A stretch of 39,554 nucleotides of DNA from a virus. The position numbers were made by a program, and so were the translations under genes. Below, one piece after another: positions 3,887 through 39,554 of the stretch. The stretch is taken from the IMG/VR virus record IMGVR_UViG_3300027710_000062, positions 1-39,554 of that record, one strand, 5' to 3'. The notes beneath the pieces are model-generated. The model worked only from the letters and a program-made list of their open reading frames with translations, was not told where the DNA came from and did no database searches. Position 1 is the first letter of the stretch; the number at the start of each line of letters is the position of its first letter.

Positions 3887-4906
3887 TTAAACGGTTACTT
3901 TTATAGTTTGTAATAGACCGTCTATAGTTTCTTGCCAACTTGGGATTGCGCGAAGATATGATTCTTTCTGAGCCACTGCTAAATTAAATCTTTCATCCTC
4001 TGTCATTTCTTCAATCGAGCTAGCCAAGTGAGTCCACTCCTGACCAATTAAGGAACTACTGCGCCAGTCAGTTACTACTGGAACGCCCACAGAAAGACTC
4101 TGAGCAAGTACAGGAGACCACCAAGGTTCGTTACCTCGGTAGACAGTGACAAGAGTTCCTACAGACTTCTTAATCCGCTCTAGGGTTATGCTTTCTTTTT
4201 CCCAGCGGGAGGCTCTTGAAGAAATTACATCATATTTTAAAGTAGCCGTAACGTTAAGAGACCACTTGGTACCTACAGAGTCGCAAGTCCAATACTCCTT
4301 GAGAATATGAAACTGCGGCTCTACATAAGGTGCTCTTAAAATTTGAGCATCAAGATTTACTGCAACCAATTTCTCAGCGGAGATGTTTGGTATTGATTGC
4401 ACAACTGCCAAAGGATTAGACCAAGGGAAGCTCGGGAAATAAGTAGTAGGCCATTCTTGAGTATAAAGAAACTCATTGAACTCGTAGACATCGGCTTTGA
4501 CTTCTGGATTTCCTACAAGATGTGAATAACTTTTCCTTCTCTGATAAAACTCTTTTGTTAAATCAGCTACGTTTAAAGATACTGATTTTAGAGAAGCTTG
4601 AAGTTTATAAGGCTCTGGGGCATCAATAAAAAGAGCAAGGTTTCCAATCTTCCTTGCTTTATTAGCAATAGAAAATGCAGGGTATACCTTGTTAGCAGAA
4701 AGACTTGTAGGCGGAGCAATACCAACAATAACTTGGTCATACTCGCTTAACTCTTCTACTGTGAGATGAACCGAAGGCTCTACTACCGATACATCAGCTC
4801 CACCATCTTGAAAGGCTTTTGCAAGAAGCGCAGAGAACGTGGGGGTTCTCAATGCTGTCTTTGTGGAAGCCTGCTGAGCAGTGCATCCAGTTATAAGTAT
4901 TTTCAT
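3887..4906 (-). CDS. Probable GT-B-fold glycosyltransferase, 339 aa
   Basis: The N-terminus MKILITGCTAQQ resembles the first strand and glycine loop of a Rossmann-like domain. The C-terminal third has the organisation of a GT-B donor-binding domain: GTLVTVYRGNEPWWSPVLAQ followed by SLSVGVPVVTDWRSSSLIG, resembling the segment in GT1/GT4-like enzymes where a conserved acidic/glycine region contacts the nucleotide-sugar. Usual EX7E residues are not clear, so the family is not fixed. A good ribosome binding site (AGGAAGGT) precedes the ATG. With the GT2 enzyme at 287-1351 the phage has two sugar-transfer genes flanking the WhiB block. The acceptor is unknown. Confidence 0.6.
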   Translation of the reverse strand: MKILITGCTAQQASTKTALRTPTFSALLAKAFQDGGADVSVVEPSVHLTVEELSEYDQVIVGIAPPTSLSANKVYPAFSIANKARKIGNLALFIDAPEPYKLQASLKSVSLNVADLTKEFYQRRKSYSHLVGNPEVKADVYEFNEFLYTQEWPTTYFPSFPWSNPLAVVQSIPNISAEKLVAVNLDAQILRAPYVEPQFHILKEYWTCDSVGTKWSLNVTATLKYDVISSRASRWEKESITLERIKKSVGTLVTVYRGNEPWWSPVLAQSLSVGVPVVTDWRSSSLIGQEWTHLASSIEEMTEDERFNLAVAQKESYLRAIPSWQETIDGLLQTIKVTV

Positions 4907-4945
4907 TGTTATACCTTCCTAAAGTTTTTGACCTCTAACTAGAAA

Positions 4946-4972
4946 GCCACCCAACAAAAAGCGTTGGGTGGC
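4946..4972 (-). terminator. Rho-independent terminator after the replication operon
   Basis: GCCACCCAAC (4946-4955) and GTTGGGTGGC (4963-4972) form a perfect 10-bp GC-rich stem with a 7-base loop. On the minus strand it is followed by TTTCT. It sits 25 bases beyond the stop of the ssDNA-binding-like gene and before the glycosyltransferase gene, so it should end transcription of the recombination/replication genes. Confidence 0.75.
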
Positions 4973-4997
4973 AATCCAGTTGAAATCCAGACCGTTA

Positions 4998-26130: not shown

Positions 26131-27021
26131 TTAGTCGCTAGGTAGTGTCACTCGCATGGCAAAAAGCATGCTTGGGTCTGCGTAGGCTGCCGCTGGGCGG
26201 AATGCCTTGATACGCATGTTGTTAATTGTAACATCTGCACCCTGAGCCAAGTTTTCATTTACAATCTCGACTTTGCCAAGATGTACCTGAACAGAACTAG
26301 TTGCATACATCCACTTGTTAGTTGCTGACGCTGTTGCGTTGGCATCTCCAATTGGACCGTTACCTGTATAACCAGAGCCAATAATGACGTCTGTACCTAA
26401 ACGAGTCATAGCCCGTCCAGAATTCTCTGTTTCGCCCTTTTTGTAAATAAGACGTGAGCCAAGGATTGATGCCATATCGCGAGTCATGTGAATGACACCG
26501 CTCTCACCAACAGGTGATGAGGCAATTGCCTGCTCAAGAATCATTAGAGCGTTTTCTGGCTTCTTTGCGCCAGACACTGGGACTGTTGCTGCACCACTCT
26601 TACGAAGGTACATGTTGCCTGCGGCATCAGTTTCTTCCTGAGCTGCAACGCCCTCCCAAAATTCAAACTCAAGTGCCTTCTGTGTTACACAGTCGAGTGC
26701 CTTTACTACTTGAGCAAAGCGGTCCTCGCCTGGAAGGCTAAATGTCGAATCAAAAATTTCTGCATCGATGTAGAACGGGACGTAGTACTGATAGTTTGCA
26801 TCAGCCTGATTGTCAGATAGTTCTCCAGCTGCGATTGTTTCGTCGTTTACTGTAAGTAGACGCACATATGAAGGCATGCTGTCATACTCGTAAGCAAACT
26901 TTCTTACCCAGCGCTCATCGCGCTCTCGTGCTGTGTGGTTCTGTACGTTAGCAACGCTCAGAATTCCGCAGGGGGCAGGAACTAACTCACCAGCGGGGAA
27001 AACCCCATTAAATGTAGCCAT
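26131..27021 (-). CDS. Virion structural protein of unknown position, 296 aa
   Basis: This protein lies between the major capsid gene and the major tail gene, so a high-copy virion role is likely. Visible features are an N-terminal region (MATFNGVFPAGELVPAPCG), EFEFWEGVAAQEE, GVIHMTRDMASILGSRLIYK and a strand-rich C-terminal half (VQVHLGKVEIVNENLAQGAD). Parts of this resemble HK97-like capsid architecture, such as a spine-helix-like stretch near ALMILEQAIA and a P-domain-like end, so a second capsid-type or pentamer protein is possible. I cannot confirm a named family. ATG 27021 has AGAGAGG upstream. Its start is enclosed by a long inverted repeat (26943-27066). Confidence 0.7.
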   Translation of the reverse strand: MATFNGVFPAGELVPAPCGILSVANVQNHTARERDERWVRKFAYEYDSMPSYVRLLTVNDETIAAGELSDNQADANYQYYVPFYIDAEIFDSTFSLPGEDRFAQVVKALDCVTQKALEFEFWEGVAAQEETDAAGNMYLRKSGAATVPVSGAKKPENALMILEQAIASSPVGESGVIHMTRDMASILGSRLIYKKGETENSGRAMTRLGTDVIIGSGYTGNGPIGDANATASATNKWMYATSSVQVHLGKVEIVNENLAQGADVTINNMRIKAFRPAAAYADPSMLFAMRVTLPSD

Positions 27022-27066
27022 TTCTTAATCTGCCTCTCTTTAGAATTCTGAGCGTTGCTTCGGTAC
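26943..27066. repeat. Long inverted repeat enclosing the start of the 296-residue gene
   Basis: GCAACGCTCAGAATTC (26951-26966) and GAATTCTGAGCGTTGC (27043-27058) are perfect reverse complements of 16 bases. After a 4-base mismatch loop on each side a further GTAC pairs with GTAC (26943-26946 and 27063-27066). The 76 bases between the 16-base arms contain the ribosome binding site, start codon and first codons of the gene. In the mRNA this forms a strong stem with the start region in the loop. Confidence 0.75.
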
Positions 27067-27084
27067 GTTAACTACTTAGTCGGC

Positions 27085-29220
27085 TTAGTACTCGACTGCT
27101 GCAGCTGTTGCTCCACCTGTTGTGTCGCGGAGAGCTGCTGCTACACCGTTAACAGAGATGGTTGATGTGATTGCAAGACCTTCGATACCAACCTTTGCGA
27201 TACCTTCGAATGTCTCGATGAACATCTTGTAGTCGTTAGTTCCGACTAGAGATGAGTCACGGATGATTCCAAGGTCCAAAGTTCCGCCATCTAGGAACAA
27301 GAATGTTCCCTCAGCGAATAGGTACCATGTGAAGCTGTCTGCGAACTCAAGAAGTGCAGATACACCCTGAGCGCCGTAGACGTTCTGGTCTAGTGAGTAT
27401 GAAACAACTACTCCACGAGCAGCTAGGTAGCCGTCGATTTCTGAGTAAGCGTTCAATGTCGAATCACCAGGCATGCTTAGAGCTAGGTCTGCAGCCATAG
27501 CGTCCTTAACCCATGAAGGGATAATAACGCGTAGTGGTGCATCAGCCTCTAGGCGATGACGTGAACGGTAAGCAGCAGCTGCGCGGCCAACCTGAACTAG
27601 GAAGTCGCGACCAAAACCGATTAGTGAAGAAGTTGTAACAGCTGTTGAAGCTGATGCAATCTTAGCTAGAAGGTTCTGCTCTGCCTCACGAGCGTGCTGG
27701 ATTAGACCAAGCTCGTTGTGGCGTGCGATTAGCTCTGGGTAAGCGCGTGTTGCTAGGTTACCGAACTGCATCTGTAGAGTTACAGCGTCAGTTGCGACGG
27801 TGTTCTCTCCAGCAGCTGTTACAGTCAAGCTAGCCTTTGTTGAAGGTGATGGAGTTGTAGCTGCATCATTTGCAGCAGTCCATACACCAACAGCGTCAGC
27901 ATAGTCTGAAAGAACTGGTGGGGTGATGAAGCGGATACCGCCACGGTCAGCCTGGAAACGAGGAAGAGCATCGCGCACTGGGCGTCCTGTTGTTCCGAAT
28001 CCAAAGATGTCGTAACGAACTTCAAATGGTGCAACGTGTCCACCAGCAGCCACAATGGCCTCTGGGGATGTTACATTGTTAATCTTTGCCCAGTTTGACT
28101 CAGCATCTGTTGTAAGAGTGCGGTCTTCTGGGAAAGAAGTGGTGATAGATGCAACGATGTGCTGCTCTCCATCTCCACCGTTGACACGACGTAGAGCGTG
28201 GATACGCTTTTCCATTGCTGATGCAACAGAATTCATGTCTTCTAGAGCGGAACCTGCGCTGTAGCCAGGAATGTCAGCACCTGCCGTGATTGCCACGGGA
28301 GCGGCTGATACCTGAGTAACAGGGCGGCGGTCCGCTGGGACCTCGGGAGTGAGGTCTGCGTTTGCAGCGGCGGTCACTGGTGCCTCCATTGTTTCCTGAG
28401 CTTCAGTTGTTGAAAGCTCAATTGTTGTGGTTTCTTTGTTTGATGCTTCTGCATCTTCTGCAACATCTGCTGCAGCATCGTCTTCAGCTACTGCTGAATC
28501 CTCTGCGGCCTCATCTGCTGCTGGTGCTTCTGCTTCTTCAGCAGGAGCGGCATCTGCTTCAACTTCGGCTACTGGAGCCTCGTCTTCTGCGGATGCAATT
28601 ACTGGTGCCTCGGCTACAGGAGCCTCAGCAGTCTCGGTTGTTACTTCAGTCGAGAGCTCGACGGTCTTGTCCGCCTCTGTTGACGCTTCGGTCATGTTCT
28701 TCTTCTCTTCCTCTGCCTTTTTCTCTTCCTCAGATTTCTCTTCGGCTGGAGCTTCTGCGGCAGGAACTTGAGCTTCTGCAGCGGGTGCTGCTTCTGCTAC
28801 GGGGGTTTCCTCTACCATTGGGGTTTCTTCTGCAGGAGTTTCTTCCTTCTTGTCTTCAACAGGCATTTCTGCTGTTTCAGCCATAGGCATCTTCTCTTCT
28901 TCTGCTGGTGTTTCTTCCATTGGTTTTTCGGAAGAGTCTTCTGAACCATCTTCCATTGATTTGCCGTCTTCGCCGTGCACGCGGGTAGCTGCTTCAGCGG
29001 CCCGCTGGGCGAGCTCCTGAATTGCGGCCTCGCGTGTCTTGAGCTCAGTACGAACTGAGTCAAGCATGTCGGCTAGCGACGTCATCGCATCAACTGTTTG
29101 CGGAGTAGGGTCCTCTTTCTCGACCGATTCGAATTCGCTGACGATTGACTTCTGAAGCTCGGCGACTTGTGCGTCGTCAAGTTCAGCTAGTGAATCCATC
29201 ATCTCTTTGATTCGGTCCAC
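27085..29220 (-). CDS. Major capsid protein with long acidic N-terminal (delta/scaffold) region, 711 aa
   Basis: The last about 400 residues have an HK97-like capsid pattern: YDIFGFGTTGRPVRDALPRF near 403-422, an N-arm/E-loop-like region, the spine helix ELIARHNELGLIQHAREAEQ (496-515), and a C-terminal strand region GIIRDSSLVGTNDYKMFIET. Residues 1-82 are helical and residues about 83-290 are a low-complexity Glu/Ala/Pro/Thr stretch. In HK97 an N-terminal delta domain of about 100 residues scaffolds assembly and is cleaved by the prohead protease; here the equivalent would be nearly 300 residues. GTG 29220 has AAGGAGG upstream. The protease gene is directly upstream. Confidence 0.85.
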   Translation of the reverse strand: MDRIKEMMDSLAELDDAQVAELQKSIVSEFESVEKEDPTPQTVDAMTSLADMLDSVRTELKTREAAIQELAQRAAEAATRVHGEDGKSMEDGSEDSSEKPMEETPAEEEKMPMAETAEMPVEDKKEETPAEETPMVEETPVAEAAPAAEAQVPAAEAPAEEKSEEEKKAEEEKKNMTEASTEADKTVELSTEVTTETAEAPVAEAPVIASAEDEAPVAEVEADAAPAEEAEAPAADEAAEDSAVAEDDAAADVAEDAEASNKETTTIELSTTEAQETMEAPVTAAANADLTPEVPADRRPVTQVSAAPVAITAGADIPGYSAGSALEDMNSVASAMEKRIHALRRVNGGDGEQHIVASITTSFPEDRTLTTDAESNWAKINNVTSPEAIVAAGGHVAPFEVRYDIFGFGTTGRPVRDALPRFQADRGGIRFITPPVLSDYADAVGVWTAANDAATTPSPSTKASLTVTAAGENTVATDAVTLQMQFGNLATRAYPELIARHNELGLIQHAREAEQNLLAKIASASTAVTTSSLIGFGRDFLVQVGRAAAAYRSRHRLEADAPLRVIIPSWVKDAMAADLALSMPGDSTLNAYSEIDGYLAARGVVVSYSLDQNVYGAQGVSALLEFADSFTWYLFAEGTFLFLDGGTLDLGIIRDSSLVGTNDYKMFIETFEGIAKVGIEGLAITSTISVNGVAAALRDTTGGATAAAVEY

Positions 29221-29382
29221 TGTCCCTCCTTGGGCAGTTAATTAGAACGGATTGTTCTATTCGCTGATTAGTCGAGGCCGAGGGACTCCGAGACGCACTA
29301 TGGCGTGGAGGCACTCCACCTGATTAAATGTTACAACCACCTGAAATAGGTGATTGTACGATTTTGAGACTTTTTCTGGTCC
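29221..29382. other. 162-base gap upstream of the capsid gene with three small hairpins
   Basis: This is the longest non-coding stretch here. It contains three inverted repeats: TAGAAC-5-GTTCTA (29243-29259), GTGGAG-3-CTCCAC (29305-29319) and ACAACCACCT-5-AGGTGATTGT (29333-29357, one G-U type mismatch). The last could end the upstream protease transcript, but no T tract follows on the minus strand. The first lies just upstream of the capsid ribosome binding site. A promoter would fit here but I see no convincing -10/-35 pair. Confidence 0.55.
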
Positions 29383-32300
29383 TTAGGTAAGGAGCCTTAG
29401 AAGCTTCGCCATCTTCGAGGAAATCTCTGACTGGTTGTAGTAATCAGCACCAGACATAAATCCCCTCAATTCTTCTGTTGCAATATCGGCATCTTCTTGG
29501 CCAATCTTGTCTTCAACCTTCTTAATCATGTCTTCCATAAGCTTTTGAAGAGCAGGAGGTACATCAGAGAAACGAATCTTTTCTGCGTCTGCACCGAAAG
29601 CAAATGGAAGGTTAGCAATAACCTTTCCAAGCTCTCCAGCGCTTGTACGGATGTTTTCTAAAGATTCAGGATTAAGCGCTTTTGCGTCCAATCTGTCAAT
29701 AATTCCAATCAAATTGTCTGCTGCTTCGACTGATGCCTTGTAGTTTCCAGCATTATCAAGGTTTTCAGCCTCTTCAACCTTCTCTATTACATCTTGTAAA
29801 CCAGAGGTTCCTAAATCTTGCTTTAGTCGAGCAAGAACCTGACGGAACTTTCCTTTAGCATCCCGAGGCTGTGTTTCAGGTGTGTACTTAGCATCGGTAT
29901 CAGCTTTTTTTGGCTGGTTTTTTGCTTCCTGCTTTAGTGCTTCGATTTCCTCTGGAGTGAGGTCTCTAATGACGTCTTCCACGACCGCAGCTACTAAAAC
30001 ATCTTTTTCAAAAAGTGCTTCTGAATTTGTAGATTTTGCTGCAAATTCGATTCGCTCACGCAAATCGGCAGCCATGTCATCAATTGTGAATTCTGAAGAA
30101 GCAACCTTCCAGTTTTCTGGGATTAGGTCCTTACGGTCTAGAGCACGAGCCTGCTTCATAATGTGCTTACGAACAGCAGCTCTTGAGCCTGGCTTTGCAC
30201 GGCCATATGCCTGTACAGCATTTTTTAGGTCTGACTCATTGCGGATTGGGAATGAACCATCCTTAAGAGCCTTGCCTTCTTCTGCTAACTTCTTACGGAC
30301 ACGACGGGAAACTACTGCTAGTTCCTTATCGGTGTCGTCCTCAATCATCTGAATCATGTAGTCAGAATCTTCATCTTTAGCCTTCTTGACTCGAGCAGCA
30401 AGTTCTGCTTGACGCTCTATCAAAAGCTCTGTGTGAAGTGTTGCAAACTTTGCCTTTGCGTCTAAAGCAGCTGCCATAAGTGGAGCCTTCTGAGCAAGTG
30501 CTAGGTCATCAATTTTTGCGTTAAGTTCTGCAAGTGGGTCATGCTTTAGCTGAGCCAATGTCGAAGCACCTGCTGCAACCAAAGCCATTACCTGACCTGA
30601 TGCAACACGGGCACGAGCAATTGGGAAACCTGGAACATTTACCTGACAAACTGCAACGAGCTCAAGGGCACCCTTAATTGGACGCCAGTCTCCTGACGGA
30701 GCAGAGGCACGAGCAGCACGGATTGCTTCTGGAGAAGTTCCTGGGCGTAGAGCACCAGATACCCAAATTCCATAAGCATCTTCTCCTGCGTGTACATCTG
30801 CAAATGCTGAAGCGGTGTCGTCATAGTGCTTGACTGCTTCTTGTGCAGAAGCCTCAAGACCTGCGTGACCGCCAGCCAAAGTTAGTTGACCAACTGGTAC
30901 ATCCTTGCCTTCAGAAGTACGAACTACACCAGTGTGGAAGTAGGAATACTTACTGCGGCTCTTAGGTGGACGAGTACCGAAAGCCATACCAATGTGGTCT
31001 ACATGCCATGCAGCGATGTGACCAAAGACCTTACCGTCATCAGTGATTGTGAGCGGTGTTGCCTTAGATAGCTTTGGGTTGTCGAACCATTCTGTTGGTG
31101 GCTCAAGTGGAATTGCGCCAGCGACCATGCCACAAGCAACAAGTGCTGAAGCATCAAGCGGGTTAACCCCATCTACATAAACGCCGTCTGGAATCTGCAC
31201 GTTTTCCTCCTGAGTTTCTGTGCCTTCTTCAATAATTTGAATAAAGCACTCTTGGAACGCTGGCTTTGGCACGATAGTGACGGCCATAATACGAGCGTTC
31301 TTGATGTTAATTCTACCTGACTCAATCTTCTTTGTATCTTCTGAATCGTCCCCTGTGGACTCTTCTACGACCTCTTCGTCAGCCTCGAACTTGTCCATAT
31401 CGGCTGACACTCCACGGATGAAACCATGGCGAACTAGACGCTCTGCCTCTTGACCAAACTGACCCTTATCGAAGACTCCGTAAGCATTTCCAATGCCTCC
31501 GTCGATACGTTCCATACTGGTAATTTGACCAACTACTACAGAACCATCGTGGCCCTGACCTGTCTTAATCTGCCAAAGCAGAGGAAGTGGTAGGTCACGC
31601 ATTGAGATAGCTCCGCCTTCGAAAATGCGGCCATCTCCAGTTTCTACTCCCTCTGGGATTACCAAAGGAATAGTGAATTTAGCACCGTGCTCTGTAGGGA
31701 CAACGCCATCGCGACCAATCATGCGAGAACGAGCAGCCTCTGCGCGAGCATGAAGAGTGAACTCTCCAATAATCTGTTCTTCTGTTTTGATTGTTTCAAT
31801 TGAAGAAACCATAGACTTCTTACGACCTGGGTTGTTCTTGTCTCCCGGCCACATGCCAGTCATCTCCTTGTGACGGAGAGCGCAGTAACCCTTTGAGCGA
31901 GGACCTAGATATTTAGCAAGGTTCTTGTGGCAACGGCTCCAGTCACCTGGAGTGTTCCAACGAATCTTTAATCCACCCTTACCAGTTGTCCAGTATTGGC
32001 GAAGTTTCTCAGCATTGCCTCTGTTGCGGTCAGCACCACCAGCAGCCATAAGTGCAGCAATAACAGCGTTATTTGATAGTGCAACTGCTGTTGATAAACG
32101 AGCAGATGCAACTACAACTCCACCATCAACCTGCTTTGTAACATCAGCAAGGTCTTCACTGCTAAGAACAATAACTGGAGGAGGTGTTGGGCTGTTTAGG
32201 TCAGCAAGAATTCTGTTGTCAAGATTCCACTTACCATCACGGCGAGTGAATGTGCTTGGCTGAGTGCTTGTCTTGCTTGCTGGAACAAGAGCTACAAGTT

Positions 32301-34227
32301 CCATTACTGCCTGAGGGTCATCCTCGGCAACAATAGCCATATAGATTGGAGCCACATCCGAGTTCTCTGGTGTGATTGCTTCTGCAGCAGCAGTGATTGC
32401 CGAAAAGTTGTATGGGTCCCACTTCTCATCTACATTCTTAACATTGTCTTTTGAATAAACTTCTTTACGAGACTTTTTACCCTCTACATCGGGGCGCTCT
32501 TTGTACCAACCGCCACGACCAGTGTATTCAGCAGCCTTCTTGGAAGTTCCGTACTGGGTATCAAGCCAATCACGAAGTAGAGGGTCGTTATAAGCGTTTG
32601 GAGACAGTGCAGGGTTCCAACTATTGTTTTTACGACTACCATCTGGATTTGTTCCAGCTCGGTAGTACTCGCCCATAACACTTTCAAGATTTGGAGGTGG
32701 TTCAGGTACAAACTCTGGTTCCTTGATTGGAGCCATCTCTGGAGATAGACGCTGGTTAGCTACCCATGCGCCCCAATCGTTAATCAAAAGATTAACTGCA
32801 GGAGCAGTTAAAGGTGGTAGACGTCCTGGAAGTTGTGCAAGAGGCTGGTCGATTGGGACACGAGGTTCACCAAGGATGCCTGAAAAATCTAGATTGTTCT
32901 GAGGGAAGTTACCCTGAGAAATAGGCTCGAATGTACTAATTTCTTGAGTTGTATTGCCGGGAACCTGAACAGTAGTTCCGTTATCAAGTTCAACGCTGAC
33001 ATTACCAGTGCTTGGGTCCTGTGCAGTGATTACACCTTGCCGTGAAGCATCTCCACCAATAACAACACGAGAACCGTTAACAGCAAATCGGCCCATCTTG
33101 TCTCGAACCTGAGTAGCAGCATTCTCTGAACGCTCTTCAGGTGTGTAGTTGCCATCTGTTTGCTGTGTGCTTGGAAGTGTTACAGATTCAGGGGCTGGTG
33201 TTGCAGCAAGAAGACCATCTTCATCCCAGTAGTCTTCGTCTGAGATTTGGTCTTCGCTTAATTGGTCTAGGAATCGATAGTCAAGTTCTGGAATGGCATT
33301 CTCAACCATTTCATTCTCATCAAAATTAAGTTTGTGCATAAAAATGCTATCCATTGGATTGCTATCAAGCATTGCTGCAATCTGAAGAGCAGATTCACTA
33401 TCCACTGGTAGGTGCATTTTATTTACTTTGTCGTAAGCATCGTCTAAGGCACGGTCATATGTATCAAAGTCATGCTCGACATTGCCCATATCTTCCCAGC
33501 AGCCGTCGTCCCAGAAGAAGCAACTTCCATCTTGGTCAACCTTGTATAGACGGTCAATACCTGAGCCATCAAGACGAATACGAATAAAGAAATCTGGTTC
33601 AATATCAATTGGTTGGAATGAGTTGTAGTCAATAGCTGCTTCGTTTGCTGTGTAAAGAGATGGATATAGACCAGCAGTAACACCAGCCTTTTTATTCTCA
33701 CGCTCTACAATTGCTGAGGCCCAACGCTCTGCAGCGTCTCCACCCCAAAGAGCCCAAGCGATACGTCCGTTACTTGGGTAGTTATCTTGTCCAGGCTTGT
33801 AGCCCTTACCCTTCTTGTCAACTTGGTGACGAGGGAAATACTTTGCAATGTGGCGAACCTTGCGAATTCCAATCTGTCCACCCTTAGCAAGAGTGCGAGC
33901 AGAGTTAAGACCTACAGGTGTTCCACCACGCTTCTCTTCTTTACGCCACTCAAGTCCACGCTTTGCTTCGGCAACTACTGCATCAGGAATTGTGTACATG
34001 CGGTCATTGTCAGAGAAAACTTTAATATCAAGGTCAGTCATTGCTGCATTAGCAAGTTCGTATGACTGGTTGTTTGGCTTCATGCCTTCTTTGTCCCAAG
34101 AGTACGCCAAAGCAAGGTCTGCCTCTGTTGAAACAGAAAGAACTTTATTAAGTCTCTCGTCTACAACAGCAGCAAGGCCATTTGAAGAAAAGAAGGCTCT
34201 ATCGCCACTTCTTCCTAAATAGTCCAT
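29383..34227 (-). CDS. Giant head protein with central HK97-type (S78) prohead protease, 1614 aa
   Basis: The protease core is residues about 850-1000: FTIPLVIPEGVETGDGRIFE, then GHDGS with His893 and RGVSADM with Ser941; the 48-residue spacing is close to that of His65/Ser115 in HK97 gp4. After it, residues 1010-1215 form a domain (TITDDGKVFGHIAAW, HYDDTASAFADVHAGEDAYG, SGDWRPIKGALELVAV) that recurs in actinophage capsid-maturation proteins. Residues 1322-1374 (DGSFPIRNESDLKNAV to LIPENWK) match a DUF6582-like domain. Residues about 95-180 carry YPSNGRIAWALWGGDA, and 755-795 a Cys/His segment (SRCHKNL to GYCALRHKEMTG). The N-terminal 840 residues are unusual. Self-processing is likely. ATG 34227. 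Confidence 0.8.
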   Translation of the reverse strand: MDYLGRSGDRAFFSSNGLAAVVDERLNKVLSVSTEADLALAYSWDKEGMKPNNQSYELANAAMTDLDIKVFSDNDRMYTIPDAVVAEAKRGLEWRKEEKRGGTPVGLNSARTLAKGGQIGIRKVRHIAKYFPRHQVDKKGKGYKPGQDNYPSNGRIAWALWGGDAAERWASAIVERENKKAGVTAGLYPSLYTANEAAIDYNSFQPIDIEPDFFIRIRLDGSGIDRLYKVDQDGSCFFWDDGCWEDMGNVEHDFDTYDRALDDAYDKVNKMHLPVDSESALQIAAMLDSNPMDSIFMHKLNFDENEMVENAIPELDYRFLDQLSEDQISDEDYWDEDGLLAATPAPESVTLPSTQQTDGNYTPEERSENAATQVRDKMGRFAVNGSRVVIGGDASRQGVITAQDPSTGNVSVELDNGTTVQVPGNTTQEISTFEPISQGNFPQNNLDFSGILGEPRVPIDQPLAQLPGRLPPLTAPAVNLLINDWGAWVANQRLSPEMAPIKEPEFVPEPPPNLESVMGEYYRAGTNPDGSRKNNSWNPALSPNAYNDPLLRDWLDTQYGTSKKAAEYTGRGGWYKERPDVEGKKSRKEVYSKDNVKNVDEKWDPYNFSAITAAAEAITPENSDVAPIYMAIVAEDDPQAVMELVALVPASKTSTQPSTFTRRDGKWNLDNRILADLNSPTPPPVIVLSSEDLADVTKQVDGGVVVASARLSTAVALSNNAVIAALMAAGGADRNRGNAEKLRQYWTTGKGGLKIRWNTPGDWSRCHKNLAKYLGPRSKGYCALRHKEMTGMWPGDKNNPGRKKSMVSSIETIKTEEQIIGEFTLHARAEAARSRMIGRDGVVPTEHGAKFTIPLVIPEGVETGDGRIFEGGAISMRDLPLPLLWQIKTGQGHDGSVVVGQITSMERIDGGIGNAYGVFDKGQFGQEAERLVRHGFIRGVSADMDKFEADEEVVEESTGDDSEDTKKIESGRINIKNARIMAVTIVPKPAFQECFIQIIEEGTETQEENVQIPDGVYVDGVNPLDASALVACGMVAGAIPLEPPTEWFDNPKLSKATPLTITDDGKVFGHIAAWHVDHIGMAFGTRPPKSRSKYSYFHTGVVRTSEGKDVPVGQLTLAGGHAGLEASAQEAVKHYDDTASAFADVHAGEDAYGIWVSGALRPGTSPEAIRAARASAPSGDWRPIKGALELVAVCQVNVPGFPIARARVASGQVMALVAAGASTLAQLKHDPLAELNAKIDDLALAQKAPLMAAALDAKAKFATLHTELLIERQAELAARVKKAKDEDSDYMIQMIEDDTDKELAVVSRRVRKKLAEEGKALKDGSFPIRNESDLKNAVQAYGRAKPGSRAAVRKHIMKQARALDRKDLIPENWKVASSEFTIDDMAADLRERIEFAAKSTNSEALFEKDVLVAAVVEDVIRDLTPEEIEALKQEAKNQPKKADTDAKYTPETQPRDAKGKFRQVLARLKQDLGTSGLQDVIEKVEEAENLDNAGNYKASVEAADNLIGIIDRLDAKALNPESLENIRTSAGELGKVIANLPFAFGADAEKIRFSDVPPALQKLMEDMIKKVEDKIGQEDADIATEELRGFMSGADYYNQSEISSKMAKLLRLLT

Positions 34228-34814: not shown

Positions 34815-37800
34815 TTATCTTGTGAACTTAACTGTAAAACCAGCATTTATTAGGTCTTGATAGATTTTTCTCGTTGATGGAGTAGTAGGTTCAGCCATGT
34901 GAACTACCGCTACTTCTTCAAGAGTTGCTCCACCAAGAATTTGCATTTCAATATAGCTGTGACCGTCAACCAAATCTTTTAACTTAGTAGTGCCATCATA
35001 CCTGCCATATGCACCAATCCATGCCAGTGCCTTGTCATCGTCAGAGACATCTCCTGTCAGTGGAACTGGCTTGTAGTCAGAGAATAGCGAGTCTCCACCA
35101 GTAAATGTTGCTCGGTCTTTAACTTCTGGCTTCATCTCAAAGAAAATATCTCCGTACTGGAAATCACTTGGCGCTGAGATACGACCATCTGCATCTGCTG
35201 CACGAATGTGACCGTAGATTGGACGGAAACGCTTATCCATTGATGGATGCATACCTAGACCAGTCACTTCATAAGTAGCACGGCGGCCTGGGTCTAACAT
35301 TCCTCTTGATGTTTTAGTTTCAAATTGTGTTTTGAATCTGCCGCTAGCTAATAATTGAGCTAGGTATCCGCTTCTGAATGCTACGACTGGTACACCCTCG
35401 TCTCTAACCAAGTCTGTTACTAGTCTGTATCCAGCTTTTCTTGTGTCACCCATGCTAGAAAGTCCAGTTTTACGACTCTCTGTGTAACCATCTAGACGAC
35501 GTAGTGACTCGCGATACTTTGACAAATCTGAAGTACGAAGACCAAACTCCGAGGCATTTGCTTCTAGGAACCTATAGAAACTAGAACTGTCCATACCTTC
35601 TGGAATGTCCACGCCCATCGGAACGCCAAATTTTTTAGCTTCCTTCATACGCTTAGAAATTTCTTCAACAAGCTGTTCTTCAGTTAGACCTACAGGAAGT
35701 GGTAGTGGTCGATAAGACTCCGCACGAGGAGGAAGTTCATCTTTCTCGGTCTTAACAAACTCTTCTTCTTCTTCAGGGGTAGGGTCTTTAACATCTGGAA
35801 CAGATGTTCTTCTAGTAGTGGCTGCCCTTGCTTTTGGTGCAGGAACTGAAAGAGCTTTTTCAGAAACTAAACCATCTGAATCAGCAATCCATAGGCGCTT
35901 TGTTGGCATACGAACACCCTTGCCACCGCCATCGAACTCAACGCGAACATAGTCCGTATATACATACTCTGTTTTGTCTTTTCTAAGTACGCGGTGTTCT
36001 TTAAGAACATCAACAACGGTTCCCCATTGTCCTGTCTTTGAGTCGTAAACTCTATCTCCGTATTTAACTTCTTTAACACCATCAGCAGATGGGTGAGTCA
36101 TTTTTACAGAAGGTGTAGGTGTAGTGCCTGCAGTACTTCTTGCTTTAATAGCCTTACTACGACGCTCAATCTCACGGATTCTTGTTGAGATTGGGGTACC
36201 GCTTACTTCATAGCGAGTTAAACTATCAATTGCACGCTTAATAGTGTTGTCAAGAGCAGTAAATGAGTGCTTAGCAACGTATGGATTTGTATCCTTGATA
36301 ACCTTGCCATCAGCATCTAGTTCACGGTAGACAACAGAAAATGTATTGTCTTTATTCTTTTGAACAACTACTTCATAACGCTTCTCGACACCACGCTCGG
36401 TGCGATTAATTCCAGTAATACTGAATGTTCCATCACCGTTATTTACTGCTTCGTACTTGTCAAATAGTTTTTTAAGAATCTCATCTGGACTTTCGCTAGC
36501 ATCGCCTAGAAGGTCTTCAAGTTCCTCTTCATCTATATCGCTATCCTTGCGGACCATTTCTGGTGTAAGCCCTCTAGGTGTAGCTGAAGGTGTAGTTCCA
36601 TCCATTTCTTCTACAGTTGGGTCTACTGGTTCGGAAAGAGGTGCAGTAAGGTCAGATGCGGCTTTTTCAGATGGGTCTAATTCTTTTTTAGTTAGAGAAG
36701 ACTTTGACTCAGTAATTTTCTTAAGAACTGTTTCAGCAGCAGACTTTTCTTCTGGAGAAGAATCTGGTGAATCGATAATTGAGCGAAGAGTACTTTCTGC
36801 ATCACCATCACGAGTTGAAGCAGTCTTAGAGATTACGGATTTTGTACCTTCTGAAACAGGCTCTCTTACAGCTGGAGTAGATGTTGATTCCTCTGCTGCA
36901 GGAGCAGATTCTGACTTCTCAACTTCATACTTGCTAAGGATGTCATCACGACGAGCTTTAAGAGCTGTCTTGTATGTTTCTGAATCCTCGGGGTCATTAA
37001 TTGCAGCATTAACAATTGCATCAATATCAGCATCAGTTAGTGAGCCAAGCTTTGCTGCCTGCTCACGAAGTTCTTCGTCAGTAATCTTTCCAAAGACTGC
37101 AGCAGCCTCTGGGTTACGACCACGGTCACGGAGTGTGTCGATTGAAGTTACTTCTGGAGTAAAGGTTGATTTCTTATCTCCACCACGAGCGCGGAAGAAC
37201 ATTGAACCACCTGCATCAATACGGTAAACCTCACCGTCCTTGATAAGCATGTTGTCGAATGCGCCACCAACTGAGTCCCAATTGTTTAGCCATGCGTCGA
37301 CAATGAAACCTTCGCGAGCGCTCTTAGCAATATCATCTTCACCACGGCGAGAGCTAAAGTTATATTCAGCGCCTTCTACAAGTGGAGAGACAATGACTAG
37401 TTCGCCATCCTTATCAGCAAGGAATGAGCGACCATGCTTAATTCCTAGCTTCTCATAGAGTGCAGAAGCAAGAACTTCGTTGCGTGCATGCTCTTCGCTC
37501 TTTGGAGTTTTGACGTAATACTCTTTGCCATCTGGGGCACGCATAAACATTCCTGCGCTAGAGCCCTTTGTTGCACCGCTAGTTGGGGTGAACTCTTCCC
37601 AATCGGAAAGGTCGCCATCAAAATTAATAACTATGTCAGAAGGTGTAGCTGTTGGAGTTTCGACTACTTCTGCAGCAGGAGTTACCTCTGTTACTGAAGG
37701 AGTAGGGGTTGTTTCCTCTGCTGCAACTGCGGCTGGTTCATCAAGAGGCTTTGTTTCAGCACCCTCTACTAACTTGCCATTACGACGACGGACATCCCAG

Positions 37801-39554
37801 CTCTTCTTGTAAGCAAAATATGAGTAGGTACCTTCGCGGCCGTCTGTAACAGACTTCATTGTGACGTCAAGTCTGTCCTTCTTATCTGGAGTTGGCTTAA
37901 TATCGAGGATTTCAACCCAACCGCCATACTTAGAAACCATAAAGTCTCCAACCATCATCTCTGATGGACGAATCTTTCCTAGTGCAGTTGTGTTTTCATC
38001 GTCTTCAATCCACTCATTGCTGATGGTTCCGCCAAGAACTGATTCAAACTTAAGTTTAGAAAGTGGAGCTTCTGGTTTATCAGTTGCAGGAGTGATTTCA
38101 TCCACGGTAGGTGTAGATGGCTTAAGAGTTGCATCTTTAACAACTTCTTCAATAGAAAGAGTTTCTCTACCTCTAGCCATCTCAGCCAAAACATTAGCCA
38201 TTGCACGGTCTGCAGCAAAGCCTTGATATTCATCAAGCATTGCATCAAACTCAGCCTTACGCTCTCTATACTTCTCAGAGATTGCATCGTACTCAAAGAA
38301 CTTAGCTTCAGGGTCTTTTGCTGCCATATCGGTAAGCAAACCATCAAGAATCGCTGGAAGAACTTCAGCGTCAACTGCAGCATCATGCCAGTCTTTTCCT
38401 TCAATTCCGTAACGCTTAGCGACAGCCTTGAGGTTACGTTGTCCTCGAACAGCGATAACTTCTTCTGCAATTGAAAGAGTGTCGATAGATGATGGGTCCC
38501 ACTCGACACCAAGCTTCTTTGCTTGCTGCTCAAGAATCAAACCATCGAATGCAACGTTGTGTGCAACGAAGAGCGGGTTTGGTCCAAGGATGTCAAAGAT
38601 TTCCTTCATAACATCTGCAACTGGAGGTTGTGTGGCTAACCACGCATCAGAAATTGGGTTTCCTTCTGAGTCCTTAAGGATTGTTTTTGGGTCAGCATCT
38701 GTATAGAAACTTGCAAGAGGCTTATCTGGATTCATAAAGCGAATGATTGGTTCCCCAACCTGTTCGCCATCTTTCATCTTGTAAATAGCAATTTGAATTG
38801 GAGTTGGATTGTCGGAGAATCCGTCGCCAACTGTTTCAAAGTCAAGGAAGTAAACCTCTTCTTTTTTGATTAATTCTTTTAGCTTCTCGTAATCTCCGCC
38901 TGCTTCTGCAAGCATGCTCTTCATGCGCTCGCCTAAGAACATAGGAGAACGAGGAGCCTGTGGCTCCATTAGAGGAACAACTGAAGTTGTTTCTGTGTCA
39001 AGAGAAGGTGTAAACATCTTTCCAGATGCTGCTTTTGCTTCTTCGAAAGCCTTTGTGTCGTCAAGGAAACGCTTGATGTCCTCGTCTGAACCAACTGGAA
39101 TCCAACCACTAGGGCTAGCATCGGATGGCTCGACTCTACCTGTGTAGTCCTTAGCAAATGGACGGTCTAGTGCTGGAAGTTCTCCTGCAGCTGGGACATC
39201 TTTTTCGCCACGGATAAAGGTAATTGGAGTTGTCTTCTTCCAAGTCTTCTTTTGACTTTCGTGCCCAACGTAATGACCAGTAACTTCAATCATTCCGCCA
39301 GTACCCTTAGTGACACCTTCAACTACAAAGTATTCGCGCTCTGGGTCATCCTTAAATGCAATATCGCCAGCAACAAGCATGTCAGGGGTTCCACGGAAAA
39401 TACCAGCATGCATCTCTTCAGTTGGGGTTGGAAGAGATAGGTCAGTAATAGGGTCTTCTGTTGTAGAACCTTCTTTTGACTTAAGTAGTGAATCTTCAGG
39501 AGATATACCTGACTCTTCACTATCAGTCTCAGTGGTTGCAGGGTCTGTTGAAGG
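34815..39554 (-). CDS. Giant head-module polyprotein: DEDDh exonuclease, kinase-like and C-terminal effector-like domains (partial, 5' end outside)
   Basis: The frame stays open to the window edge, so the protein has at least 1579 residues; numbers here count from Met at 39413. A DEDDh exonuclease lies at about 186-360: DFE (Asp191, Glu193), AHNVAFD (Asp290) and HDAAVD (His343, Asp348). Residues 605-830 look like a HipA/PI4K-like kinase fold: glycine-rich GATKGSSAGMF, VKTPKS (Lys635), NNWDSVGGAFDN (Asp713, Asn721) and RIDAGGS (Asp733). Three SH3/KOW-like segments are at 12-68, 480-545 and 1116-1178. Residues 1305-1532 (FKTQFETKTSRG, RPIYGHI, YGDIFFEMKP, RATFTGGDSL) resemble a DUF3626 or ADP-ribosyltransferase-like domain. 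Acidic Pro/Thr-rich linkers join the domains. It probably travels in the head. Confidence 0.75.
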   Translation of the reverse strand, partial: PSTDPATTETDSEESGISPEDSLLKSKEGSTTEDPITDLSLPTPTEEMHAGIFRGTPDMLVAGDIAFKDDPEREYFVVEGVTKGTGGMIEVTGHYVGHESQKKTWKKTTPITFIRGEKDVPAAGELPALDRPFAKDYTGRVEPSDASPSGWIPVGSDEDIKRFLDDTKAFEEAKAASGKMFTPSLDTETTSVVPLMEPQAPRSPMFLGERMKSMLAEAGGDYEKLKELIKKEEVYFLDFETVGDGFSDNPTPIQIAIYKMKDGEQVGEPIIRFMNPDKPLASFYTDADPKTILKDSEGNPISDAWLATQPPVADVMKEIFDILGPNPLFVAHNVAFDGLILEQQAKKLGVEWDPSSIDTLSIAEEVIAVRGQRNLKAVAKRYGIEGKDWHDAAVDAEVLPAILDGLLTDMAAKDPEAKFFEYDAISEKYRERKAEFDAMLDEYQGFAADRAMANVLAEMARGRETLSIEEVVKDATLKPSTPTVDEITPATDKPEAPLSKLKFESVLGGTISNEWIEDDENTTALGKIRPSEMMVGDFMVSKYGGWVEILDIKPTPDKKDRLDVTMKSVTDGREGTYSYFAYKKSWDVRRRNGKLVEGAETKPLDEPAAVAAEETTPTPSVTEVTPAAEVVETPTATPSDIVINFDGDLSDWEEFTPTSGATKGSSAGMFMRAPDGKEYYVKTPKSEEHARNEVLASALYEKLGIKHGRSFLADKDGELVIVSPLVEGAEYNFSSRRGEDDIAKSAREGFIVDAWLNNWDSVGGAFDNMLIKDGEVYRIDAGGSMFFRARGGDKKSTFTPEVTSIDTLRDRGRNPEAAAVFGKITDEELREQAAKLGSLTDADIDAIVNAAINDPEDSETYKTALKARRDDILSKYEVEKSESAPAAEESTSTPAVREPVSEGTKSVISKTASTRDGDAESTLRSIIDSPDSSPEEKSAAETVLKKITESKSSLTKKELDPSEKAASDLTAPLSEPVDPTVEEMDGTTPSATPRGLTPEMVRKDSDIDEEELEDLLGDASESPDEILKKLFDKYEAVNNGDGTFSITGINRTERGVEKRYEVVVQKNKDNTFSVVYRELDADGKVIKDTNPYVAKHSFTALDNTIKRAIDSLTRYEVSGTPISTRIREIERRSKAIKARSTAGTTPTPSVKMTHPSADGVKEVKYGDRVYDSKTGQWGTVVDVLKEHRVLRKDKTEYVYTDYVRVEFDGGGKGVRMPTKRLWIADSDGLVSEKALSVPAPKARAATTRRTSVPDVKDPTPEEEEEFVKTEKDELPPRAESYRPLPLPVGLTEEQLVEEISKRMKEAKKFGVPMGVDIPEGMDSSSFYRFLEANASEFGLRTSDLSKYRESLRRLDGYTESRKTGLSSMGDTRKAGYRLVTDLVRDEGVPVVAFRSGYLAQLLASGRFKTQFETKTSRGMLDPGRRATYEVTGLGMHPSMDKRFRPIYGHIRAADADGRISAPSDFQYGDIFFEMKPEVKDRATFTGGDSLFSDYKPVPLTGDVSDDDKALAWIGAYGRYDGTTKLKDLVDGHSYIEMQILGGATLEEVAVVHMAEPTTPSTRKIYQDLINAGFTVKFTR

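Follow-up and report, generated by a model that had tools for sequence, protein, structure and literature searches.

A start-enclosing RNA stem conserved at a capsid gene junction of actinobacterial phages: a candidate translational attenuator

Across a large family of actinobacterial viruses, which includes cultured Microbacterium and Arthrobacter phages, a long RNA stem encloses the translation start of the gene that follows the major capsid gene. The stem, called the clamp here, was analysed in IMG/VR viral record IMGVR_UViG_3300027710_000062, whose 39,554 bases constitute the window, and in relatives drawn from IMG/VR and GenBank phages. Its pairing is kept through compensatory changes, beyond what shuffled and slid controls give. 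With some reserve, we favour the view that the clamp is a cis-acting translational attenuator, through which the pentamer capsid protein stays scarce relative to the hexamer protein.

A repeat search of positions 26800-27200 returned a single inverted repeat, with arms at 26943-26966 and 27043-27066 that are 24 nt each, 88% complementary and separated by 76 nt. It is the top inverted repeat with a span below 300 nt across the entire window, and the arm sequence has no second copy anywhere in it. The continuous stem is 18 bp long with one G-U pair (27042-27059 with 26950-26967); beyond it lie a 3x3 mismatch and then a GTAC/GTAC pair (Table 1). These results confirm the near-24-nt arms and the aligned GTAC pair of the preliminary description at 26943-27066. 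Its placement of the downstream arm in codons 19-26 is about right, the uninterrupted part being codons 19-24 and the GTAC extension reaching codon 27. The fold that it suggested for the minus (mRNA) strand of 26930-27085 has an energy of -61 kcal/mol, compared with -36.6 +/- 3.8 in 200 shuffles, none of which is as low (z -6.4). Among 24 gene starts tested, only that of the pentamer gene is spanned by such a stem (z 7.7 vs at most 2.2 for the others).

Table 1. Features of the clamp and its flanking genes in the window
Feature	Coordinates	Strand	Description
5' arm AGCAACGCTCAGAATTCT (mRNA strand)	27042..27059	-	intergenic and non-coding, from nt -38 to -21 relative to the start codon; covaries with the 3' arm
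5' arm outer extension	27060..27066	-	GTAC and 3 unpaired nt
3' arm GGAATTCTGAGCGTTGCT	26950..26967	-	codons 19-24 (G-I-L-S-V-A) of the pentamer gene; reduced synonymous diversity
3' arm outer extension	26943..26949	-	3 unpaired nt and GTAC; codons 25-27
Shine-Dalgarno region GAGAGGCAG	27030..27038	-	of the pentamer gene, within the loop; its GGCAG predicted paired
Anti-Shine-Dalgarno stretch CCTGCCCCCTGC	26968..26979	-	codons 15-18 (P-A-P-C), directly inside the 3' arm; CUGCC predicted to pair with GGCAG
Hexamer-forming major capsid protein gene, 711 aa	27085..29220	-	phrog_777 / NCBIfam MCP_Sipho
Pentamer (vertex) capsid protein gene, 296 aa (very probable assignment)	26131..27021	-	phrog_779, predicted HK97 fold

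The upstream protein matches phrog_777 (E 1e-83) and NCBIfam MCP_Sipho (E 2e-98), and its cultured relatives in A3Wally, Cece, Mimi and Atuin are annotated as 'major capsid hexamer protein'. The 296-residue downstream protein belongs to phrog_779, a family listed as unknown, and a comparison by sequence with solved structures gave chance matches only. Foldseek matches of its AlphaFold2 model (mean pLDDT 73) are confined to encapsulins and phage capsid proteins (best E 9e-10, probability 1.00), and the structural match to the HK97 capsid has a Z of about 12. The proteins that follow the hexamer protein in mycobacteriophages Badfish, Corofin and Bananafish are annotated as 'major capsid pentamer protein'; they are themselves phrog_779 members (E 1e-105 or better), and a profile comparison by hhalign aligns the window protein with the annotated pentamer proteins (98.7%, E 2e-16). 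Because it has this family and this profile alignment in common with them, the downstream neighbour is very probably, as judged from sequence comparison, the pentamer, or vertex, capsid protein. No virion structure containing a phrog_779 protein was found in the literature searched, and a search of 84,980 bacterial and archaeal genomes gave no relatives.

The hexamer gene ends 63 nt before the pentamer start. No intrinsic terminator was detected in 26500-29500, the junction shows no promoter pattern, and no T-run follows the 3' arm; therefore, the two genes probably share one mRNA. Other features of the window were recorded alongside. Over its first ~300 residues, the hexamer protein (27085-29220) has an acidic extension rich in Ala, Glu and Pro that may be an internal scaffold domain. 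Domains resembling a portal and a head maturation protease (phrog_859, phrog_18402) are combined in a 1614-residue protein (29383-34227). In a 1532-residue protein (34815-39413), the sole recognisable part is a DNA polymerase exonuclease-like domain close to the N-terminus. At 4937-4981, a 19-nt hairpin with 84% complementarity and a 7-nt loop lies between two minus-strand ORFs.

The clamp is a property of a whole clade. Of 119 distinct sequences around the pentamer-gene start, 79 have the stem, and these make up all of the clamp clade, in which protein identity falls to about 35%. In each, a stretch upstream of the ribosome-binding site pairs with the codons for G-[IL]-[LF]-S-[VP]-A; the 5' arm lies at about -45 to -13 and the 3' arm at about +45 to +92 at most, and the stem has a z of 4.6-12 against shuffled upstream regions in the 79 sequences. 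The arm sequences are wholly unlike across subclades: the window has AGCAACGCTCAGAATTCT, L006 GGCAACGCTTAGGA, L027 CGCCCAGAAGCCC, Microbacterium phages CCGAGCCACACTGAA and Arthrobacter phage Mimi GTAGCTGGACTCAGAA, and every one of them is matched by its partner arm. One further record, L267, is an otherwise normal member in which the 5' arm and the Shine-Dalgarno (SD) sequence are deleted exactly at the junction (1480-1510), and is possibly a deletion variant or a misassembly. The preliminary description took paired arms to be expected wherever related phages share the gene order. This holds inside the clade, where all 79 distinct sequences pair and L267 is an exception by deletion. Outside the clade, the cluster B mycobacteriophages and a sister clade share the gene order but have no clamp; a short-loop hairpin stands at their junction instead.

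Covariation was assessed in 52 dereplicated sequences aligned with MAFFT without structural guidance. From this alignment RNAalifold recovers the clamp stem alone, with 12 pairs and double changes at 8 of them; no other conserved structure or sequence was found by RNAalifold, nor was a conserved alternative pairing. When 18 pairs are counted, 88.3% of the cells are paired as opposed to 73.9% in shuffles (0 of 500 as high) and 31-41% when the partner is slid, and the covariation score is 0.448 vs 0.204 in shuffles. On the protein tree, at least 28 double changes from one Watson-Crick pair to another are inferred. The search for compensatory changes in related phages that had been proposed for this repeat thus gives a positive answer: the sequence of the stem varies, and its pairing is kept.

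The type of single change identifies the molecule under selection. Starting from a Watson-Crick pair in the core, 31 single changes lead to G-U and 4 to A-C (p 3e-6), and the raw mismatch counts in the core point in the same direction. Selection on DNA or on the other strand would tolerate G-U and A-C on the mRNA strand equally, which is not what is seen; the asymmetry indicates that the selected object is the RNA of the mRNA strand. Together with the covariation, it bears out the earlier proposal of an mRNA duplex, sited between the capsid gene and its neighbour, that holds the start region in its loop. Synonymous codon diversity is also lower in the arm codons, with a median ratio of 0.69 compared with 0.93 elsewhere in the gene (p 0.006), in agreement with the claim that the downstream arm is kept despite coding constraint.

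The dimensions of the loop are nearly constant. A gap of 68-88 nt (median 77) separates the core arms, the 5' arm ends a median of 20 nt before the start codon, and the median stem probability is 1.0. With this loop size and arm position, the loop just fits the region covered by a 30S subunit. Inside it, the SD is predicted to pair with the codons directly inside the 3' arm (Ala-Pro-Cys codons, e.g. GCTCCCTGC). Mean SD pairing across 52 relatives is 0.63 vs 0.39 in synonymous shuffles (p 1.6e-8), and in the window it is 0.83 vs 0.24; the anti-SD pairing is missing in the Microbacterium-type phages (L081-L084). The median cost of opening the ribosome footprint is 16.5 kcal/mol at the clamp pentamer gene, compared with 9.6 for the major tail protein gene that follows; a clamp-less sister clade has 11.3 at its pentamer gene. 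The hexamer start gives 14.4 kcal/mol, close to the pentamer value, and this figure is unreliable because hexamer starts were guessed at many loci.

Scrambling of the 5' arm has a small effect in the model: the unpaired fraction of the SD goes from 0.30 to 0.32, and the opening cost from 16.6 to 13.9 kcal/mol. The thermodynamic gain that the long stem brings to occlusion therefore appears to be modest, and its role may be fast and certain refolding rather than extra occlusion. Occlusion by the long arm itself was rejected, as the modelled SD pairs with codons inside the 3' arm and barely depends on the 5' arm. A further candidate was a small hairpin whose loop contains the hexamer stop codon, seen at 27075-27105 and at loci L006, L016, L152 and L234 with matching changes between members. 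As it is weak, occurs patchily and for the most part does not outdo shuffled sequences, it was discarded as a second conserved element.

An icosahedral capsid has 55-60 pentamer subunits and hundreds of hexamer subunits, and the ratio rises with a larger T number. For Rosebush, a cluster B phage, T = 9 (PMC7150772), which corresponds to 480 hexamer subunits to 55-60 pentamer subunits. A structure that hampers access to the pentamer start is the simplest explanation. In the capsid-operon mRNA, the arms would close a loop of ~77 nt that takes in the ribosome-binding site and the first pentamer codons; the codons inside the 3' arm would act as an anti-SD, and the stem would hold both sides together. 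With the SD mostly paired, ribosomes would load rarely on the pentamer gene, and the hexamer protein, encoded upstream on the same transcript, would be translated freely. As a result, pentamer synthesis from one mRNA would be lowered relative to hexamer synthesis, towards roughly 1:8 to 1:16. The first ribosome probably engages nascent RNA that still lacks the 3' arm, or loads during a rare opening, and an elongating ribosome would have to melt the stem. We infer the repression, its size, and stoichiometry as its reason.

The core 5' arm begins a median of 27 nt (10-41) after the hexamer stop codon, a distance that makes melting of the stem by a terminating ribosome unlikely in most members. 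Coupling through ribosomes that terminate on the hexamer gene was rejected on this ground. Translational control of the ratio, which the preliminary description had raised as one option, gains support from the identification of the neighbour as pentamer protein and from the anti-SD codon bias. It is the best reading of the junction, and the interpretation as a whole is partly supported; the sister clades that manage without a clamp count against it.

Other roles for the stem fit parts of the same evidence. If the duplex were an RNase III site, cleavage between the genes would destroy or separate the pentamer start, and the ratio would be set by mRNA cleavage and not by occlusion. A long, near-perfect duplex of variable sequence is a generic double-stranded RNA substrate, and several members reach 22-27 bp with small bulges. 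However, the stem is just 14-18 bp in the Microbacterium and Arthrobacter types, which is short for the enzyme, and stems of this length and of varying sequence neither require nor exclude processing. A cleavage site alone predicts neither the anti-SD codon bias nor a stem that always brackets the start; it could sit anywhere between the genes, like the short-loop hairpins of other phages. We regard an RNase III site as unlikely to be the explanation by itself. In the icaR mRNA of S. aureus, SD/anti-SD pairing both blocks ribosomes and makes an RNase III substrate (PMC3868564), so occlusion and RNase III cleavage are compatible and could act together. It is quite unlikely that the stem is a barrier to 3'-to-5' decay that shields the hexamer mRNA at its 3' end and raises hexamer output, with secondary effects on the pentamer. 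Other phages with the same gene pair do have a strong, stabiliser-like short-loop hairpin without a T-run, but a decay barrier needs no 3' arm in the codons of the next gene, no constant loop of 68-88 nt and no anti-SD bias.

A phage or host factor, such as excess capsid protein, might stabilise or open the stem, which would then be an autoregulatory or switchable operator; ribosomal-protein operons are the classic precedent. The loop is big enough for further structure, yet RNAalifold finds nothing conserved past the stem, and the wholesale replacement of the stem sequence between subclades argues against a sequence-specific binding site. An operator is accordingly very unlikely in our judgment. 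There remains a feature of the DNA with no RNA function, be it a recombination, packaging or replication site or the product of template-switch copying between the arms. Template switching creates and homogenises inverted repeats, and the window arms are near-perfect copies. Against this stand the strand asymmetry of 31 G-U to 4 A-C changes and the recurrence of every arm at one gene start and in the same codons across highly diverged phages, which leave a DNA-level feature with almost no credibility.

The same gene junction is structured in other phages. The sister clade (motif SAFGLLAVAKP, freshwater-type, e.g. DSL-LC01) has no clamp, with a z of about 0. In this clade, and in cluster B mycobacteriophages and Gordonia phages that have the same gene pair, a strong short-loop hairpin without a T-run lies between the genes. 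Junction hairpins of this kind, with 11-20 bp, occur in many other actinophages, at loci L269, L274, L276, L271, L272, L273 and those of the L034-L079 type; possible roles are processing, stabilisation of the mRNA or weak termination. Gordonia phage GMA2 (L270, about 4150-4320) has a start-enclosing clamp, in which TCGGCAGGTTGAGGA pairs with TCCTCAACCTGTCGA (z 5.0). Its sequence is unrelated to that of the clade, and the GMA2 pentamer protein is a distant member of phrog_779. No relatives of this protein were found in viral contigs, so the GMA2 clamp is known from one sequence. A general device of actinophages with separate hexamer and pentamer proteins, in which the RNA of the hexamer-pentamer junction takes at least two forms (clamp and short-loop hairpin) and sets stoichiometry through pentamer translation, is a tentative idea that we think somewhat doubtful.

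Phages that encode hexamer and pentamer proteins in separate genes need very unequal levels of the two, and the means by which one transcript achieves this are rarely known. As a candidate answer, the clamp bears a sharp evolutionary signature, and its occurrence in cultured Microbacterium and Arthrobacter phages makes it directly testable. The analysis would also give a function, predicted from sequence and structural modelling, to phrog_779. More broadly, a clamp that encloses a start codon is a simple, sequence-flexible design that may fix the output ratio of neighbouring genes.

No Rfam family matches the clamp at the curated gathering score; a sub-threshold match to mir-249 comes from the general form of a long hairpin. 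A search of the openly accessible literature gave no account of the element. The clamp appears to be a new conserved RNA element of a known type, the long-range mRNA structures that enclose a ribosome-binding site. Long-distance control operates in phages MS2 and Qbeta, in the leader of the maturation protein gene and in the Min Jou interaction at the replicase start. There, as proposed for the clamp, folding of a phage mRNA at a start limits a few-copy protein relative to the coat protein. In contrast, those are single-stranded RNA phages, and the Min Jou interaction ties replicase translation to that of the coat protein, whereas the clamp stem begins a median of 27 nt past the hexamer stop, a distance at which we would not expect its core to be melted by a terminating ribosome. 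In Staphylococcus aureus icaR, a distant stretch of the mRNA pairs with the SD region, so that fewer ribosomes load and RNase III is given a duplex substrate (PMC3868564). Long-range SD/anti-SD pairing within one mRNA is likewise predicted for the clamp. The icaR anti-SD, however, lies in the 3' UTR, hundreds of nt away, in a cellular repressor gene, whereas that of the clamp belongs to a phage capsid operon and lies in codons 15-18, beside a stem of 14-18 bp whose 5' arm precedes the ribosome-binding site.

Phage T4 has separate HK97-fold hexamer and pentamer proteins, gp23 and gp24 (PMC13185644). The division of hexon and penton between two HK97-fold proteins is common to T4 and the clamp phages, and the tests made detected no relatedness between the T4 capsid genes and the hexamer/pentamer pair. 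We know of no RNA element of the clamp type at T4 gene 24. The nearest likeness is to cluster B mycobacteriophages and their relatives, which have the same gene pair (phrog_777 and phrog_779) and a strong RNA structure between the two genes. In these phages the structure is a short-loop hairpin upstream of the ribosome-binding site, and not a clamp that encloses it.
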